A stretch of 29,861 nt of DNA, taken from NCBI GenBank assembly GCA_029717555.1, contig JAMDHS010000141.1, forward strand, positions 1 through 29,861, written 5' to 3'. The DNA comes from Peribolospora baueri. Lineage: Eukaryota > Basidiomycota > Peribolosporomycetes > Peribolosporales > Peribolosporaceae. The notes under the pieces are model-generated. The model did no database searches. It was not told the origin of the DNA and saw nothing but the letters and a program-made list of their open reading frames with translations. Below, piece after piece: positions 17,641 to 29,861 of this stretch; the stretch's first letter is position 1, and each line of letters begins with the position of its first letter. The position numbers and the translations under genes are program-made.

Positions 17641-19832
17641 ATGTCGCCCGCCGCATCCACTTCGTACCGCCTTTTTCTCGGGGACGATCACGGCCTTCTC
17701 AAGGTCGCCCGTGTTCAGGTTCCAGGAGAGGGCGCGCAAACACACTTCCAGCTCCTAGATGTCGTCGTTGACGGCGCCGACTTTCCGCCTGCGGTGGAGA
17801 GAAGTGTGACGAGGATGGCCAAGGGGGAGGTAGACGGGAGGACAATTGTGGGTGTTCCTGTCTCCTCACGGGCGCAAATTGGTTGTTGATCTTCGTTTGA
17901 CTGGCCCTTGCTCATCTTGACTATTTCGCTCTTGTCTCTCAGATCGCAGTGGCCCGCAAAGACGGCATGATCGACGCGCTATGCATCGTCGATGAGGCGC
18001 AAGAAGACCCATCGAAATCAGCCGCTGAAGGAGACGCTGAGCCTGATGCAACGCGAAAGCGCGCTACGCTGCTCTTCTTCATTCACGAAGACCGCTTCTT
18101 GGCCGGCAAGGAGCGCTTCGTGGGATTGCGTGTTGGGAAGGAGTGAGTGTGCCTTTGACTTCATCACTCGCCGTCAGATTGGATTTACTTGGCTCTCACG
18201 TTTATCCACATGCAGTGGCATCACCTCCGTGACCTCGCTCGGCAACTTCCGGCACACCCCTTGGCCCTCCCCACTGTTTCCCGACCCTCCCCGTACCGCG
18301 CCCCTCACGCCCTCTGAGCTTCCGAGCCCGACCACCTTTGAACTTCCGTCACCGCTGCACGGGCTGGCTTTCAACAGTGCGCCGGGAGTTTTGGAAAGGG
18401 AGGACGTCCCTTCTCCTACGTACTTTGCGTACGGAGGTCTCGACGTGCCGCTCTCCATTTGGGAGCTGGAGAGAGCGCTGGGCGGTCCTTCCCCCACCGG
18501 CGAATCTGTGCAGAACGGTGGCAGAGACGAAGAGAAGGTGGAAGAGGGTGCGGAGACAATGAATTCTAAGCAGAGGAAGAGGAAGAGGCAAGCGGACGCG
18601 AGGAGGAAAAGAGAAGAACTGATGTGGGGAGAAGTGTGGAGGGCTAAGAATGTGAGTCTTTGCTGCAGGTCTCTCCATTGCTTCTCCGCTCGCATCCTCG
18701 TTCCGTGCTCGTACCAGTTTTTCTCACCGATTGAGCAATCCGTTTGGCGCACCGCACAGCTCCCCAATGACTCAACCTCTCTCTCCCGTCCACCAAACAC
18801 CACCTGCGTCGCCTTCCTCACGCGCCCCTCTCTCCCATCGACGCCCACCTCCTCGTCGTCTGCTACACCAGCACTGCGATTAGCGACGGGGACGAAAGAG
18901 GGATGGGTGCGGATCTACGAGACGTTTGGGAAAATGAATACGAGGAAGCCCTTAAAGGAGTGGAAGGTGCTGAGAGACGGTGGGGGCGCAATAAAGGGTT
19001 TGCAGGAGGGGTCGCACGAGGGGTGAGTCGAGGCCTCCTCTACCTGAATGTGGTGCTTTCGACCTCGATTTGACTCTTCCTGTCTCCTTATCGAATCATT
19101 CCCGGCAAAGGGAACTCTTCATATGGGATACACAGAGCAGGTTGTATGTCCTTGACTGGCGAACGGGCAAGGTCCTTTACCACCACAAGGGTGAGCGCGC
19201 CGGATCACAAGGTCCTTCGGGGCAATGCCATGCTGACCCACCGACGCGCTCGCCACTCCGGATTTTCGTACGCACCGAAAGACATCACCGGTGCCATCTC
19301 CGCCGTCGTCCCTCTTTCCTCCATTCCGGTTGCTCCCTCTTCTCTAATCTCAAATCAGAAAGTCAACTTTGTCATCTCGACCTCCCTTGACCGACTCGTC
19401 CGACTGCATTCCTCTCCACCGATGCCTTTGCTCGCTCCCGAGGTTGCTCTTTCCACGAATACTTCATCGAGCAACGGCCTCTCCAAGGGACCCAAACAAG
19501 TGGGCTCCAAGCCCCCTGCGCTACGCGGGGAGACTCTCGGACACGTTTTCACCGGCACGGCACCCACTGCCGCCATTTTGGAGGGGCACGAGACCGCCAT
19601 CGCCGCTGACGCCGGCCAGGCGCAGAGAGCGGGAAAGGACGGCTACGAGGACGAGAGCGGGGACGAGGAAGAGATGTGGGGCGCTCTTGGCCGAGTGGAG
19701 GAGGGGAGTGAGGGTGGGGATGAGAATACGAGCGACGAAGAGGAGGAGAGGAAGGAGAAAAAACGATTGAAGGAGGAGCGAGTGAAGGGCAGTGGGAGGA
19801 AGAGAGCGAAAGCGAAGGAGTCTGGGAAGTGA
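17641..19832 (+). CDS. NSA1: Ribosome biogenesis WD40 protein NSA1 (WDR74 homologue)
   Basis: Six exons (17641-17847, 17943-18142, 18216-18651, 18760-19022, 19111-19190, 19282-19832) give 578 aa. Nsa1/WDR74 is a WD40 propeller protein of early pre-60S particles in the nucleolus, removed by the AAA-ATPase Rix7/NVL2. Supporting motifs: RLFLGDDHGLLKVARV at the start, IAVARKDGMIDALCI, then FAYGGLDVPLSIWELE. Next come ELMWGEVWRAKN followed by LPNDSTSL, matching the AKNVxND signature of the family. Then come LATGTKEGWVRIYET, ELFIWDTQSRLYVLDWRTGK and VISTSLDRLVRLH. The C-terminal tail (from about residue 500) is acidic, then Lys/Arg-rich, as expected for nucleolar targeting. Exon 3 carries a Pro-rich and a KQRKRKRQADARRKR insertion between blades. 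The start at 17641 is the first in-frame ATG after the shared URA3 promoter. Confidence 0.93.
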
Positions 19833-20541
19833 CGCAGCCATATCCCGTTGGAACTGTGTCTGACCATCTTCATCAAGCGCGTGCACGGCAATGATTTCCC
19901 GGCATGTAGTGTCCCGCGTCCGTGTATAGAAGGATGTCTAAAGGGGAAGAGGACACCTAATCGTCTTGATTGGGTGGATGGGAGGTTGGACGTCGTTTGC
20001 GAAACATGAACGAGCGAGGAAAGGAAGTTCGAGTCACTCTGCTAGTGACGCTGTTCCCTGCCGCTTATTGAGGGATGGCTCAGATGGCCCGCTCACGCTG
20101 GTGCTAGCGTTGGCTGCGACGGGTCGTGGTGTTGACCAAACAGTCTGAGTCTCGGCTGGCTGACAACTATCTCTGCTGGCTCATCAGCACCTCTTTTCCC
20201 CCGCATTGTCTCTCTCCGCTCGACAGCAGACCTTGAGCCGTCCAGACAAATGACAGACATCCGACATGCGGAATGAGACGAGACCTCAGGCGAGACTCGG
20301 TCAGAACGAAACCGTCTTCGTCAGCTGTTGTGCTCAGCTTTCTCATGCTGAACCAAGGCTGTCGCAACCTGGATTCCCCCCCCCCCCTCGAAGATATATC
20401 TAGACGGGGGGCGGGGAGGGTTGCTGACTCGATAGCACCACGACCCCTCTTATCTTCCAGTTGTCTGTTCACTCGACCAAGCATCCGACTAATCCAGAAA
20501 ACGCATCGGTCACCATTCAGCGCCTCCACGAACTCTTTACC
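19833..20541. other. Intergenic region NSA1 to coiled-coil gene
   Basis: This 709-bp stretch lies between two plus-strand genes and should hold the NSA1 3' UTR and the promoter of the coiled-coil gene. Its most visible element is a C-run/G-run palindrome at 20376-20420, listed separately. Open frames here, including a long minus-strand one running on into the coiled-coil gene, show no family motif. I see no additional gene. Confidence 0.5.
20376..20420. repeat. C-run / AGATATATCT / G-run imperfect palindrome
   Basis: A C12 run (20376-20387) is followed by a spacer containing the perfect palindrome AGATATATCT. A G-rich block of the form CG6CG4AG3 follows (20405-20420). The C and G runs can pair around the central palindrome, with a few mismatches. 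It lies about 120-165 bp upstream of the coiled-coil gene's ATG, so it may be a core promoter or a structured DNA element. It could also be simple-repeat noise. Confidence 0.4.
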
Positions 20542-21249
20542 ATGTCGTCTAACACCGCCGCCGCCGCTCAGTCGTACCGCCAGAACCCTCAGGCGGCCGA
20601 GTCGAACGATGGAGCGCTGTTCGGCGATGAAGACACGAAGGCGCTGCTGAAAAAGATGGTCATGTACCTTGCCAAAATCGCTGAAGAGGCCAGGGGGTGA
20701 GTACTTGGTGGCGCCTAATTGATCCGAACAGGAAGAAAAGGCGAAGGAGGCGAGGAAACTGACATCCGAACTCGACTCGACTCGACTCGCTCCTGCAACC
20801 GCCTGCCTCGACGAATCAGCATCAAGGAGGAGACCCACCAGGCCAGGGTGGAGTGCCACCAGGTCAAGGAGCACTGCGCAGGCATCAAGGAGCACTGCGC
20901 AGGCACCAAGGAGCACTGCGCCAACATCGATAACCACAGCAAGGAGACGAGGGACCATTGCAAGGCCACCAAGGAGCATTGTGCCGATATGAAAGAGCAT
21001 TGCAAGGACATCAGGGTGAGCAGACGGGCGCAGAGCCGGCCGCCTTAAAAGGTCTGGCACTGGCACGCCGGTTGACCCTTCCATCTTCCTGACTCTTTGC
21101 AGAAATCCGCCGACTCGTGCAAGTCGAGCTGCGAAGACCTGAAGAAATCGTGCGAAGGGATCGACAAGAACTGCGACAAGGTCAAGAAATCGTGCGATGG
21201 CATCGAGAAGAACACGGGCGAGTTTGTGCCCCGCATGTCTGCCGCTTGA
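20542..21249 (+). CDS. Cysteine-ladder coiled-coil protein of unknown family
   Basis: Three exons (20542-20696, 20820-21015, 21103-21249) give 165 aa with consensus splice sites and intact phase. I recognise no family. From about residue 36 to 158 the protein keeps one uninterrupted heptad register. Residues at one core position are L36, L43, A50, T57, then C64, C71, C78, C85, S92, C99, C106, C113, A120, C127, C134, C141, C148, T155. The second core position is M39, I46, I53, A60, V67, I74, T81, I88, T95, T102, M109, I116, C123, L130, I137, V144, I151, F158. In exon 2 His precedes the core Cys in most heptads (EHCAG, EHCAN, DHCKA). In exon 3 Ser or Asn replaces it (KSCEG, KNCDK). There is no signal peptide or membrane segment, so it is probably cytosolic. 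A metal-binding or disulfide-laddered coil is inference. Confidence 0.82.
20866..20928 (+). repeat. 21-bp tandem repeat encoding one heptad
   Basis: Three adjacent 21-bp units at 20866-20886, 20887-20907 and 20908-20928 encode KEHCAGI, KEHCAGT and KEHCANI. The first two differ by one base and the third by a few. Because the unit is exactly one heptad, copy-number change by slippage would lengthen the coil without breaking frame or register. Confidence 0.85.
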
Positions 21250-21588
21250 GCATGCCTGTTCCTCGACGTCTCCTCTCCTCTCCTCTCTGCCTCTTGTAGA
21301 GTACATTAATGCGAGGTGACACGACAAGAGGTGGTGAATGAGAACAAACAAATGTTTCATTTTTCGACCGACCTGTACGAGCGCCACTCTCGTTGAACGC
21401 CGGCGGGTGTCGCAGCTCAACACCGCCGTGCCGCAGCACCGGAATGAACACCGCCATGGGGACGTGCACGCGTCGGTCAAAAGACTCGACGTCGGCCGGT
21501 CGCACGTCGCACACCGCTTTCATCTCCACCTCCATCTCCCTCCTCCACTTCCTCTTCGCCCTTGACGCCGCATCGCAGACGCACAAGC
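21250..21588. other. Intergenic region coiled-coil gene to M50B gene
   Basis: A 339-bp gap between plus-strand genes. It starts with a pyrimidine-rich 3' UTR-like segment. It ends in a CT-rich tract (about 21520-21560) just before the M50B start, as often seen in fungal core promoters and leaders. Two short upstream ATGs near 21443 and 21455 could form small upstream ORFs if transcription starts early enough. No gene is seen. Confidence 0.45.
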
Positions 21589-28693: not shown

Positions 28694-29860
28694 TTAAACT
28701 ATACCCAATGCTTTCCGGCCATCCACGATAGTCACAAAGCCAGCGGGACTTCCGACGACCAATCGGCCGCTGTGCAATGCTTGAGCAACCCCTCTGTTTT
28801 CCAATGGCATCCACCATTGTCTCCTGCCCCAGTCGTCCTTCACCCATCCATCCTTGTCGACCAAGAGCAACTTCTGCTGCGACATTTCAGCAAGTTCTTG
28901 GCTTTCCATGCCTTCGCCACCAGACGGAATAGCAGCATCATTAGCCATCTTCCACACAAGGACTTCTTCCACCGACATCGAGACGATCCGCTTCCCGTCT
29001 CGGGAGAAGGCGACCGAGAAAACCGGACCCGTATCACCTTCGAGTCTACCGACCGCCTCGCCCGTCGACGCGTCCCACATCCGGAGGGTGCTGTCGCCCG
29101 TGCTGTCGCCCGAACGAGAGACGATTCGTTTCCCATCTGGGGAGAAGGCGACCGAGAGGACCCGACCCGTGTGACCTTCGAGCGGTCTACCGATCGCCTC
29201 ACCCGTCGACGCGTCCCGCATCCGGAGGGTGTTGTCGTGGGAACCAGAGACGATTCGCTTCCCATCTGGGGAGAACGCGACCGACGTGACCCAACTCGTG
29301 TGACCTTCGAGCGGTCTACCGATCGCCTCACCCGTCGACGCGTCCCACATCCGGAGGGTGTTGTCATCCGAATCAGAGACGATTCGCTTCCCATCTGGGG
29401 AGAAGGCGACCGAGAGGACCGAACTCGTGTGACCTTCGAGCGGTCTACCGATCGCCTCACCCGTCGACGCGTCCCACATCCGGAGGGTGTTGTCATACGA
29501 ACCAGAGACGATTCGCTTCCCGTCTGGGGAGAAGGCGACCGAGAGGACCCGACCCGTGTGACCTTCGAGCGGTCTACCGATCGCCTCGCCCGTCGACGCG
29601 TCCCACATCCGGAGGGTGTTGTCGTGGGAACCAGAGACGATTCGCTTCCCATCTGGGGAGAAGGCGACCGAGAGGACCGAACTCGTGTGACCTTCGAGCG
29701 GTCTACCGATCGCCTCACCCGTCGACGCGTCCCACATCCGGAGGGTGTTGTCGTGGGAACCAGAGACGATTCGCTTCCCATCTGGGGAGAACGCGACCGA
29801 CGTGACCCAACTCGTGTGACCTTCGAGCGGTCTACCGATCGCCTCACCCGTCGACGCGTC
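28694..29860 (-). CDS. WD40 repeat protein with near-identical repeats, C-terminal part (NLR-type candidate)
   Basis: The minus-strand frame enters from beyond the window and ends at TAA 28694-28696, giving 388 codons. Six 43-46-residue WD40 units (LEGHTSSVLSVAFSPDGKRI, SGSHDNTLRMWD, ASTGEAIGRP) are followed by a seventh, degenerate unit (LEGDTGPVFSVAFSRDG, VLVWKM). A non-repeat tail follows, with LLLVDKDGWVKDDWGRRQWWMPLENRGVAQALHSGRLVVGS. This GW...WWMP...R ending is typical of fungal multi-domain WD40 proteins whose N-terminus often carries a NACHT or NB-ARC NTPase. Here the N-terminal domains are outside the window, so NLR status is inference. No intron is needed within the visible part. 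High repeat identity with variation at few positions suggests concerted evolution and recognition-type diversification. Confidence 0.9.
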   Translation of the reverse strand, partial: DASTGEAIGRPLEGHTSWVTSVAFSPDGKRIVSGSHDNTLRMWDASTGEAIGRPLEGHTSSVLSVAFSPDGKRIVSGSHDNTLRMWDASTGEAIGRPLEGHTGRVLSVAFSPDGKRIVSGSYDNTLRMWDASTGEAIGRPLEGHTSSVLSVAFSPDGKRIVSDSDDNTLRMWDASTGEAIGRPLEGHTSWVTSVAFSPDGKRIVSGSHDNTLRMRDASTGEAIGRPLEGHTGRVLSVAFSPDGKRIVSRSGDSTGDSTLRMWDASTGEAVGRLEGDTGPVFSVAFSRDGKRIVSMSVEEVLVWKMANDAAIPSGGEGMESQELAEMSQQKLLLVDKDGWVKDDWGRRQWWMPLENRGVAQALHSGRLVVGSPAGFVTIVDGRKALGIV

Positions 29861-29861
29861 C
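29031..29861 (-). repeat. Tandem 129-bp WD40-coding repeats
   Basis: Six units recur with an exact 129-bp period, as seen from the identical GTGACCTTCGAG strings starting at 29171, 29300, 29429, 29558, 29687 and 29816. The array runs off the window end. Units are almost identical in DNA, differing mainly at two short windows per unit. The unit nearest the C-terminus is 138 bp because of an internal 12-bp duplication and a lost codon. Confidence 0.93.

Follow-up and report, generated by a model that had tools for sequence, protein, structure and literature searches.

Designed coiled coils, including the TRI family, carry one or two layers of cysteine on a core of leucine or isoleucine. A natural precedent for a cysteine-lined helical bundle that holds metal is the bacterial protein Csp3, a four-helix bundle in which each monomer turns 18–19 cysteines toward the core and takes up about 20 Cu(I); the protein is cytosolic, has no signal peptide, and its thiols can stay reduced (PMC5171941). 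The Cryptococcus proteins CnMT1/2 and the Tremella protein TmMT are copper-thioneins that grew by tandem amplification of a cysteine unit; in TmMT, 48 of the 57 cysteines lie in CXC motifs, and the units contain 7 cysteines and proline doublets (PMC4755600). Conserved cysteine and leucine mark the motifs of the Msg proteins, of which families I–III have predicted coiled coils (PMC5676039). The literature searched, which was largely open-access, listed no natural coiled coil in which cysteine recurs every seven residues.

The locus described here lies on contig JAMDHS010000141.1 of Peribolospora baueri (assembly GCA_029717555.1); the window is the whole stretch of 29,861 nucleotides that was analysed. 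Three exons join in frame across two GT..AG introns, which bears out the 165-residue product of the initial annotation, and the features are collected in Table 1. We propose, as a possible rather than a probable reading, that the product is a mostly helical fungal hairpin that would pair into a cysteine-lined bundle and buffer a soft metal in the cytosol.

Table 1. Coordinates of the gene, its repeats and its predicted elements within the window.
Feature	Position	Strand	Description
Exon 1	20542..20696	+	Residues 1–51 plus two bases of codon 52; N terminus (1–26) disordered, then start of helix 1
Intron 1	20697..20819	+	123 nt, GTGAGT..CAG; retention leads to TGA in the exon-1 frame
Exon 2	20820..21015	+	Remainder of codon 52 to residue 117
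Exon 2 heptads		+	Eight units from residue 64: seven Cys, one Ser (S92)
21-bp tandem repeat	20864..20921	+	TRF: 2.8 copies, 97% match; source of three near-identical KEHCAG units
His-Cys part of array	20872..21003	+	Residues 70–113; His at 7/7 g positions, adjoining Cys six times and Ser once
Predicted turn	20929..20940	+	Residues 89–92 (Asp-Asn-His-Ser); seen in the best full-length and fragment models from AlphaFold2
Intron 2	21016..21102	+	87 nt, GTGAGC..CAG; TAA in the exon-2 frame
Exon 3	21103..21249	+	Residues 118–165 and stop; Cys 123, 127, 134, 141, 148
42-bp tandem repeat	21129..21213	+	TRF: 2.0 copies, 81% match; two heptads per unit

The start codon has A at position −3. A CTGAC sequence begins 14 nt before the end of intron 2, whereas the nearest one in intron 1 begins 61 nt before the end, so the branch point of intron 1 is less clear. 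Coding scores, trained on five neighbouring frames that run from stop to stop and may include intron, are 0.171, 0.124 and 0.046 per codon for exons 1–3 in the chosen frame, with lower values in the other frames and values of at most 0.017 in the introns. The GC3 of the gene is 0.81, compared with 0.65–0.72 in five neighbouring frames (again stop to stop, with possible intron), a hint of good expression; the G+C content of the window is 57%, which, together with the gene style, would fit a basidiomycete yeast. Elsewhere the window encodes OMP decarboxylase, DOP1, a short-chain dehydrogenase, a Peptidase_M50B-like protein and WD40 repeats, a gene content that is eukaryotic and most likely fungal. 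The gene is flanked by the M50B gene and by a frame at 19074–19832, which we take to be the end of a WD40 ribosome-assembly protein and for which Pfam gives a weak EF-1_beta_acid match alone. At 28980–29861, near-identical WD40 repeats are encoded on the minus strand by 129-bp tandem repeats (5.8 copies at 29112–29861, 93%); they form a propeller array that was amplified recently and continues past the end of the window, as in HET-E-like proteins of fungi.

The protein contains 12 cysteines, at residues 64, 71, 78, 85, 99, 106, 113, 123, 127, 134, 141 and 148. The eleven at 7-residue spacing that were first reported do fall into one heptad class, with S92, A120 and T155 occupying the gaps in the series; C123, which had been overlooked, occupies position d, the second position of the core. 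The heptad register can indeed be written without a slip from residue 36 to 158, across the introns, and with the main cysteine class as position a, the 13 units have, in order, V, I, T, I, T, T, M, I, C, L, I, V, I at position d. The binomial probability of 11 out of 12 cysteines in one mod-7 class, multiplied by 7, is 3.7e-8, and none of 20000 random placements of 12 cysteines in residues 40–165 equalled the observed periodicity (periods 2–20); since the units are tandem duplicates, these values overstate independence, and the divergence of the units is the fairer argument. As a control within the window, 110 of the 397 stop-to-stop frames of at least 50 residues have at least four cysteines; by cysteine heptad bias, the exon-2 frame came 1st, the antisense of exon 2 2nd, an unrelated frame at 18177–18914 (minus strand) 3rd and the exon-3 frame 4th. 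There is a single CXXXC (C123–C127), and no CXC among the 12 cysteines.

Over the 13 units, position g holds seven histidines and then S, S, S, N, S, N. The histidines, at residues 70, 77, 84, 91, 98, 105 and 112, directly precede the cysteine position and were not mentioned in the initial annotation. In the seven consecutive heptads of exon 2 the histidine is more regular than the cysteine; it is not found at that position in exon 3.

The 21-bp (97%) and 42-bp (81%) repeats lie within the array, which shows that it grew by duplication. The array is not a fresh minisatellite throughout: the mean DNA identity between units, with the cysteine codon excluded, is 0.495 (0.484 between exon-2 and exon-3 units), against a background of 0.298 in N-terminal windows of the same gene. 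Despite this divergence the cysteine is kept in 11 of the 13 units, one unit having alanine. The cysteine column is the most conserved of the unit at both codon and residue level, with an amino-acid identity between units of 0.71 at position a and 0.17, 0.12, 0.18, 0.38, 0.26 and 0.36 at positions b to g. We take the retention of cysteine in diverged units as selection in its favour; the alternative is gene conversion between units.

The predicted shape was approached with a COILS-type score and with AlphaFold2. The COILS-type score is 0.35 at residues 39–55, 0.30 at 111–119 and 0.91 at 127–151; across residues 63–103 it was sampled at six positions and is 0.00–0.10. When cysteine is scored as neutral, values of 0.48–0.96 are obtained from residue 103 on, while residues 79–95 still score 0.02–0.07 and the best register places C64–C85 at e, not a. 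Replacement of cysteine by leucine leaves the score at 0.06–0.09 at 71–87, and replacement by alanine raises it at 95–151. Glycine in the units of 63–103 disfavours helix.

AlphaFold2 was given a single sequence, an input from which helical models are easily over-trusted. The best full-length model has helices at 30–88 and 93–157 (mean pLDDT 80.3, pTM 0.58), with pLDDT below 50 for residues 1–26; the other four models have a mean pLDDT of 61.1–69.4. The best model of fragment 55–156 has helices at 56–65, 67–88, 93–134 and 140–155 (mean pLDDT 83.0). The helix break at 89–92 is common to both best models, and the breaks at 66 and 135–139 occur in the fragment alone. We have moderate confidence in the predicted helices and the turn at 89–92. 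The unbroken coiled-coil rod that had been described is thus not well supported, given this turn and the low score at the sampled positions of 63–103; the predictors give a mixed picture, the helical AlphaFold2 prediction over 30–157 and the high COILS-type score at 127–151 standing on the other side.

A Foldseek search of the PDB with the best model gave 579 matches at E 10, of which none reaches E 0.001. The top match is YfmS (E 7.1e-3, TM 0.65 by query, 2.8 Å over 135 columns), followed, among the best 50 of the 579, by other chemoreceptors and by VIPP1, PspA and the p85 inter-SH2 hairpin. VIPP1, PspA, p85 inter-SH2 and the chemoreceptors are long antiparallel hairpins, and the cytoplasmic domains of chemoreceptors pair into four-helix bundles. 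The model is hairpin-like by these matches, although any long hairpin would match them. Counting by index alone, a hairpin that pairs a with d' (index sum 180) has 16 layers and no Cys-Cys contact within the chain, and one that pairs a with a' (index sum 184) has 8 layers, three of them Cys-Cys (71–113, 78–106 and 85–99).

The statement that no named family is recognizable holds for Pfam, NCBIfam, PADLOC and the PDB, where the matches are generic coiled coils, weak or driven by pattern. The sole Pfam match above its cut-off among the best 25 of 35 families at E 10 is MSG (PF02349), with 25.1 bits against a cut-off of 22. After three shuffles that keep the heptad with cysteine fixed, the MSG score is 21.7, 24.2 and 22.1 bits, two of the three remaining above the cut-off, whereas the match is lost with Cys-to-Ser and Cys-to-Ala replacement and in all three register-breaking shuffles, two of which keep cysteine in place. 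Since the match survives the heptad-keeping shuffles, the MSG profile detects cysteine heptads with coiled-coil filling, and homology to MSG was rejected in favour of a shared pattern. Matches of the SMC, Rad50 and JetC type were also rejected: coiled coils commonly give such hits, and wherever NCBIfam sets a curated cut-off these fall far short of it. No similarity to Csp or DUF326 was found among the best 25 of 35 Pfam families, the 23 NCBIfam families or the PDB matches. The best PDB sequence match is weak (E 0.014), to a chain titled sc-apCC-6-SLLA.

A protein scan of viral contigs matched five stretches, none of them a relative at a tblastn E of 1e-3. The one plasmid record found by tblastn (Streptomyces, E 5e-3) reads at that place as a 7-residue minisatellite with cysteine and was rejected as a relative. 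A double K-E-H-C motif occurs in two stretches of the viral contigs, L260 and L261; the L260 match is out of frame with a 244-residue phage frame and was set aside, and the L261 match lies in an 88-residue frame.

Cysteine-heptad arrays were also sought in viral contigs and prokaryote genomes, a scope in which the frequencies do not speak for fungi. Eight cysteine codons at exact 21-base spacing occur in at least 120 stretches of viral contigs, with an open frame at 31 of the 120 listed loci; five cysteine heptads with polar e/f positions occur in at least 116 stretches of prokaryote genomes; and four such heptads with a fifth cysteine codon occur in 23 stretches of viral contigs. Among the matches listed, the three scans together cover 259 loci, of which 131 contain the 134 open arrays, with a mean unit identity above 0.7 in 104 arrays and below 0.55 in 12, so that low unit identity alone is not unique to the array in the window. 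A COILS-type score (cysteine neutral) of at least 1.3 is reached by 30 of these 134 listed arrays, and three of the matches listed combine it with an identity below 0.65: L026, a Cys/Leu/Arg-rich frame; L155, an Asn/Arg repeat; and L251. The array in the window scores 1.51 (cysteine neutral) at an identity of 0.50. L251, the most coiled-coil-like cysteine array with diverged flanks among the matches listed, has five near-identical CARAEED heptads in a 391-codon viral-contig frame. In five viral contigs (L003, L009, L025, L096 and L108), long heptad arrays that stay in frame follow the pattern C-(S/T)-x-L-x-G-(N/D) and have diverged units; these look like a solenoid repeat and not a coiled coil.

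The 708 bases upstream of the gene (19834–20541) contain 16 GCTG/CAGC sequences, compared with a contig mean of 7.4; this count is in the top 1.2% of contig windows and was equalled in 2 of 500 mononucleotide shuffles. GCTG/CAGC forms the core of Ace1/Cuf1-type copper sites in fungi. Six motifs were tried upstream. With two sites, a count matched by 11.6% of contig windows, the full Ace1/Cuf1-type motif is not significantly enriched; the MRE-, STRE-, Mac1- and Yap1-type motifs are not enriched in the same region, the Yap1-type being absent from it.

In the proposed mechanism, the repeat array arose by duplication of 21- and 42-bp units, and two long helices (about 30–88 and 93–157) would fold back at 89–92 into a hairpin. 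Hairpins would then pair into a bundle whose core consists of rows of cysteine alternating with Val/Ile/Thr/Met, with histidine beside six of the cysteines in the half of the bundle near the turn. The thiol rows would stay reduced in the cytosol, where they may act as a buffer that binds a soft metal, most likely Cu(I). The pairing of hairpins, the binding of metal, copper as the metal and the cytosolic location are all inferred. The metal-buffer reading is favoured by the single heptad class of 11 of the 12 cysteines, by the retention of cysteine in 11 of 13 units that have diverged to an identity of 0.495, by the coding scores of the exons, by the helices and the shared break at 89–92 in the best AlphaFold2 models, by the chemoreceptor hairpins at the top of the Foldseek list, by the upstream GCTG/CAGC excess (16 against 7.4) and by the precedent of Csp3. 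It is weakened by the lack of significant enrichment of the full Ace1/Cuf1-type motif among six motifs tried, by the a–d' pairing (sum 180), which leaves no Cys-Cys layer within the chain, and by the shape predictions: a low COILS-type score at 63–103, four AlphaFold2 models at pLDDT 61–69, no Foldseek match at E 0.001 and additional breaks at 66 and 135–139 in the fragment. One cysteine per heptad is also sparser than the CXXXC arrangement of Csp.

The main alternative, which is also possible though on the doubtful side, is that the protein is an ordinary coiled coil or a close-packed antiparallel helix pair, in which repeat expansion has spread cysteine simply as a core residue that is small and mildly hydrophobic, with no metal or redox chemistry. 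In the antiparallel 'Alacoils' a small residue likewise recurs at every seventh position. The residues in the three gaps are all small (Ser, Ala and Thr), the alternate core positions hold V/I/T/M/L, Cys-to-Ala replacement raises the COILS-type score at 95–151, and the title of the weak PDB match, sc-apCC-6-SLLA, points the same way. A neutral rule for small residues would, however, be suited no less well by alanine, yet cysteine fills 11 of 13 units and alanine one, and the seven consecutive histidines beside the cysteine positions are left unexplained. It is rather unlikely that this is a young repeat protein under little constraint, in which a minisatellite grew recently inside a real exon and the cysteine periodicity is a by-product. 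The near-identical 21-bp units at 20864–20921 and the 42-bp repeat of exon 3 are of the kind expected from such growth, as is the high unit identity (>0.7) of 104 of the 134 arrays listed from the phage and prokaryote scans; against this, the array as a whole has diverged, its cysteine column is the most conserved, and the register is maintained across an intron.

The stacked cysteines might instead serve as an oligomer lock in oxidative stress, by way of reversible disulfides between chains, since paired helices would bring equivalent cysteines close, as in the three a–a' pairs at index sum 184. We consider this decidedly unlikely: the N terminus shows no secretion signal by eye, so that a reducing cytosol is likely; the upstream region has no Yap1-type site; and the rigid bundle of Csp3 keeps its core thiols from coupling (PMC5171941). 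An error in the gene model, with the true product antisense or spliced otherwise, is very improbable. An antisense frame of 450 codons is open at 20167–21519 (minus strand) and spans the whole gene, but it has no Pfam family at E 0.01 and its best coding scores opposite the three exons are near zero (0.046, 0.040 and 0.028 per codon), so it was rejected as the product; the sense exons have canonical splice sites and the top coding score in the frame used.

Metal binding by the thiols would make the protein a natural counterpart of the cysteine-core coiled coils, which have been known mainly from design work, and would show that simple repeat growth gave rise to metal-holding helical bundles outside bacterial Csp. 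If the thiols bind none, the protein offers a test case for how far cysteine can serve as a plain core residue. A more specific possibility, which we regard as unlikely, is an independently reached eukaryotic answer to Csp, in which an ordinary coiled-coil hairpin grew by 21-bp duplication into a cysteine-lined, histidine-edged bundle that stores a soft metal such as Cu(I) in the cytosol of the fungus; this would add a third architecture to the CXC metallothioneins and Csp.

The protein resembles the TRI-type designs in having cysteine at core heptad positions, and differs in that 11 of 13 units carry one, where the designs have one or two cysteine layers. Its Pfam score exceeds the cut-off for MSG (PF02349), the domain of the Pneumocystis major surface glycoproteins, whose motifs likewise hold conserved cysteine; the Msg proteins are surface adhesins, however, whereas no signal or anchor is evident here by eye, and the present match reflects a shared pattern. 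Like Csp1 and Csp3, it has many cysteines on helices, which are predicted here and whose cysteines face the bundle interior in Csp, and Csp too has histidine near the bundle opening (PMC5171941). Whereas Csp is a compact four-helix bundle of one chain with many CXXXC pairs, the present protein has two long helices, by a low-depth prediction, with one cysteine per heptad and one CXXXC; its mode of action would, mostly by inference, be like that of a bacterial Csp without its being a Csp. With the basidiomycete modular metallothioneins (PMC4755600) it has in common a fungal origin, a length unusual for a thiol protein and tandem cysteine units, but it has no CXC and places one cysteine per 7 residues on predicted helices. 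The present protein would thereby join the repeat growth seen in metallothioneins with a predicted helical scaffold.
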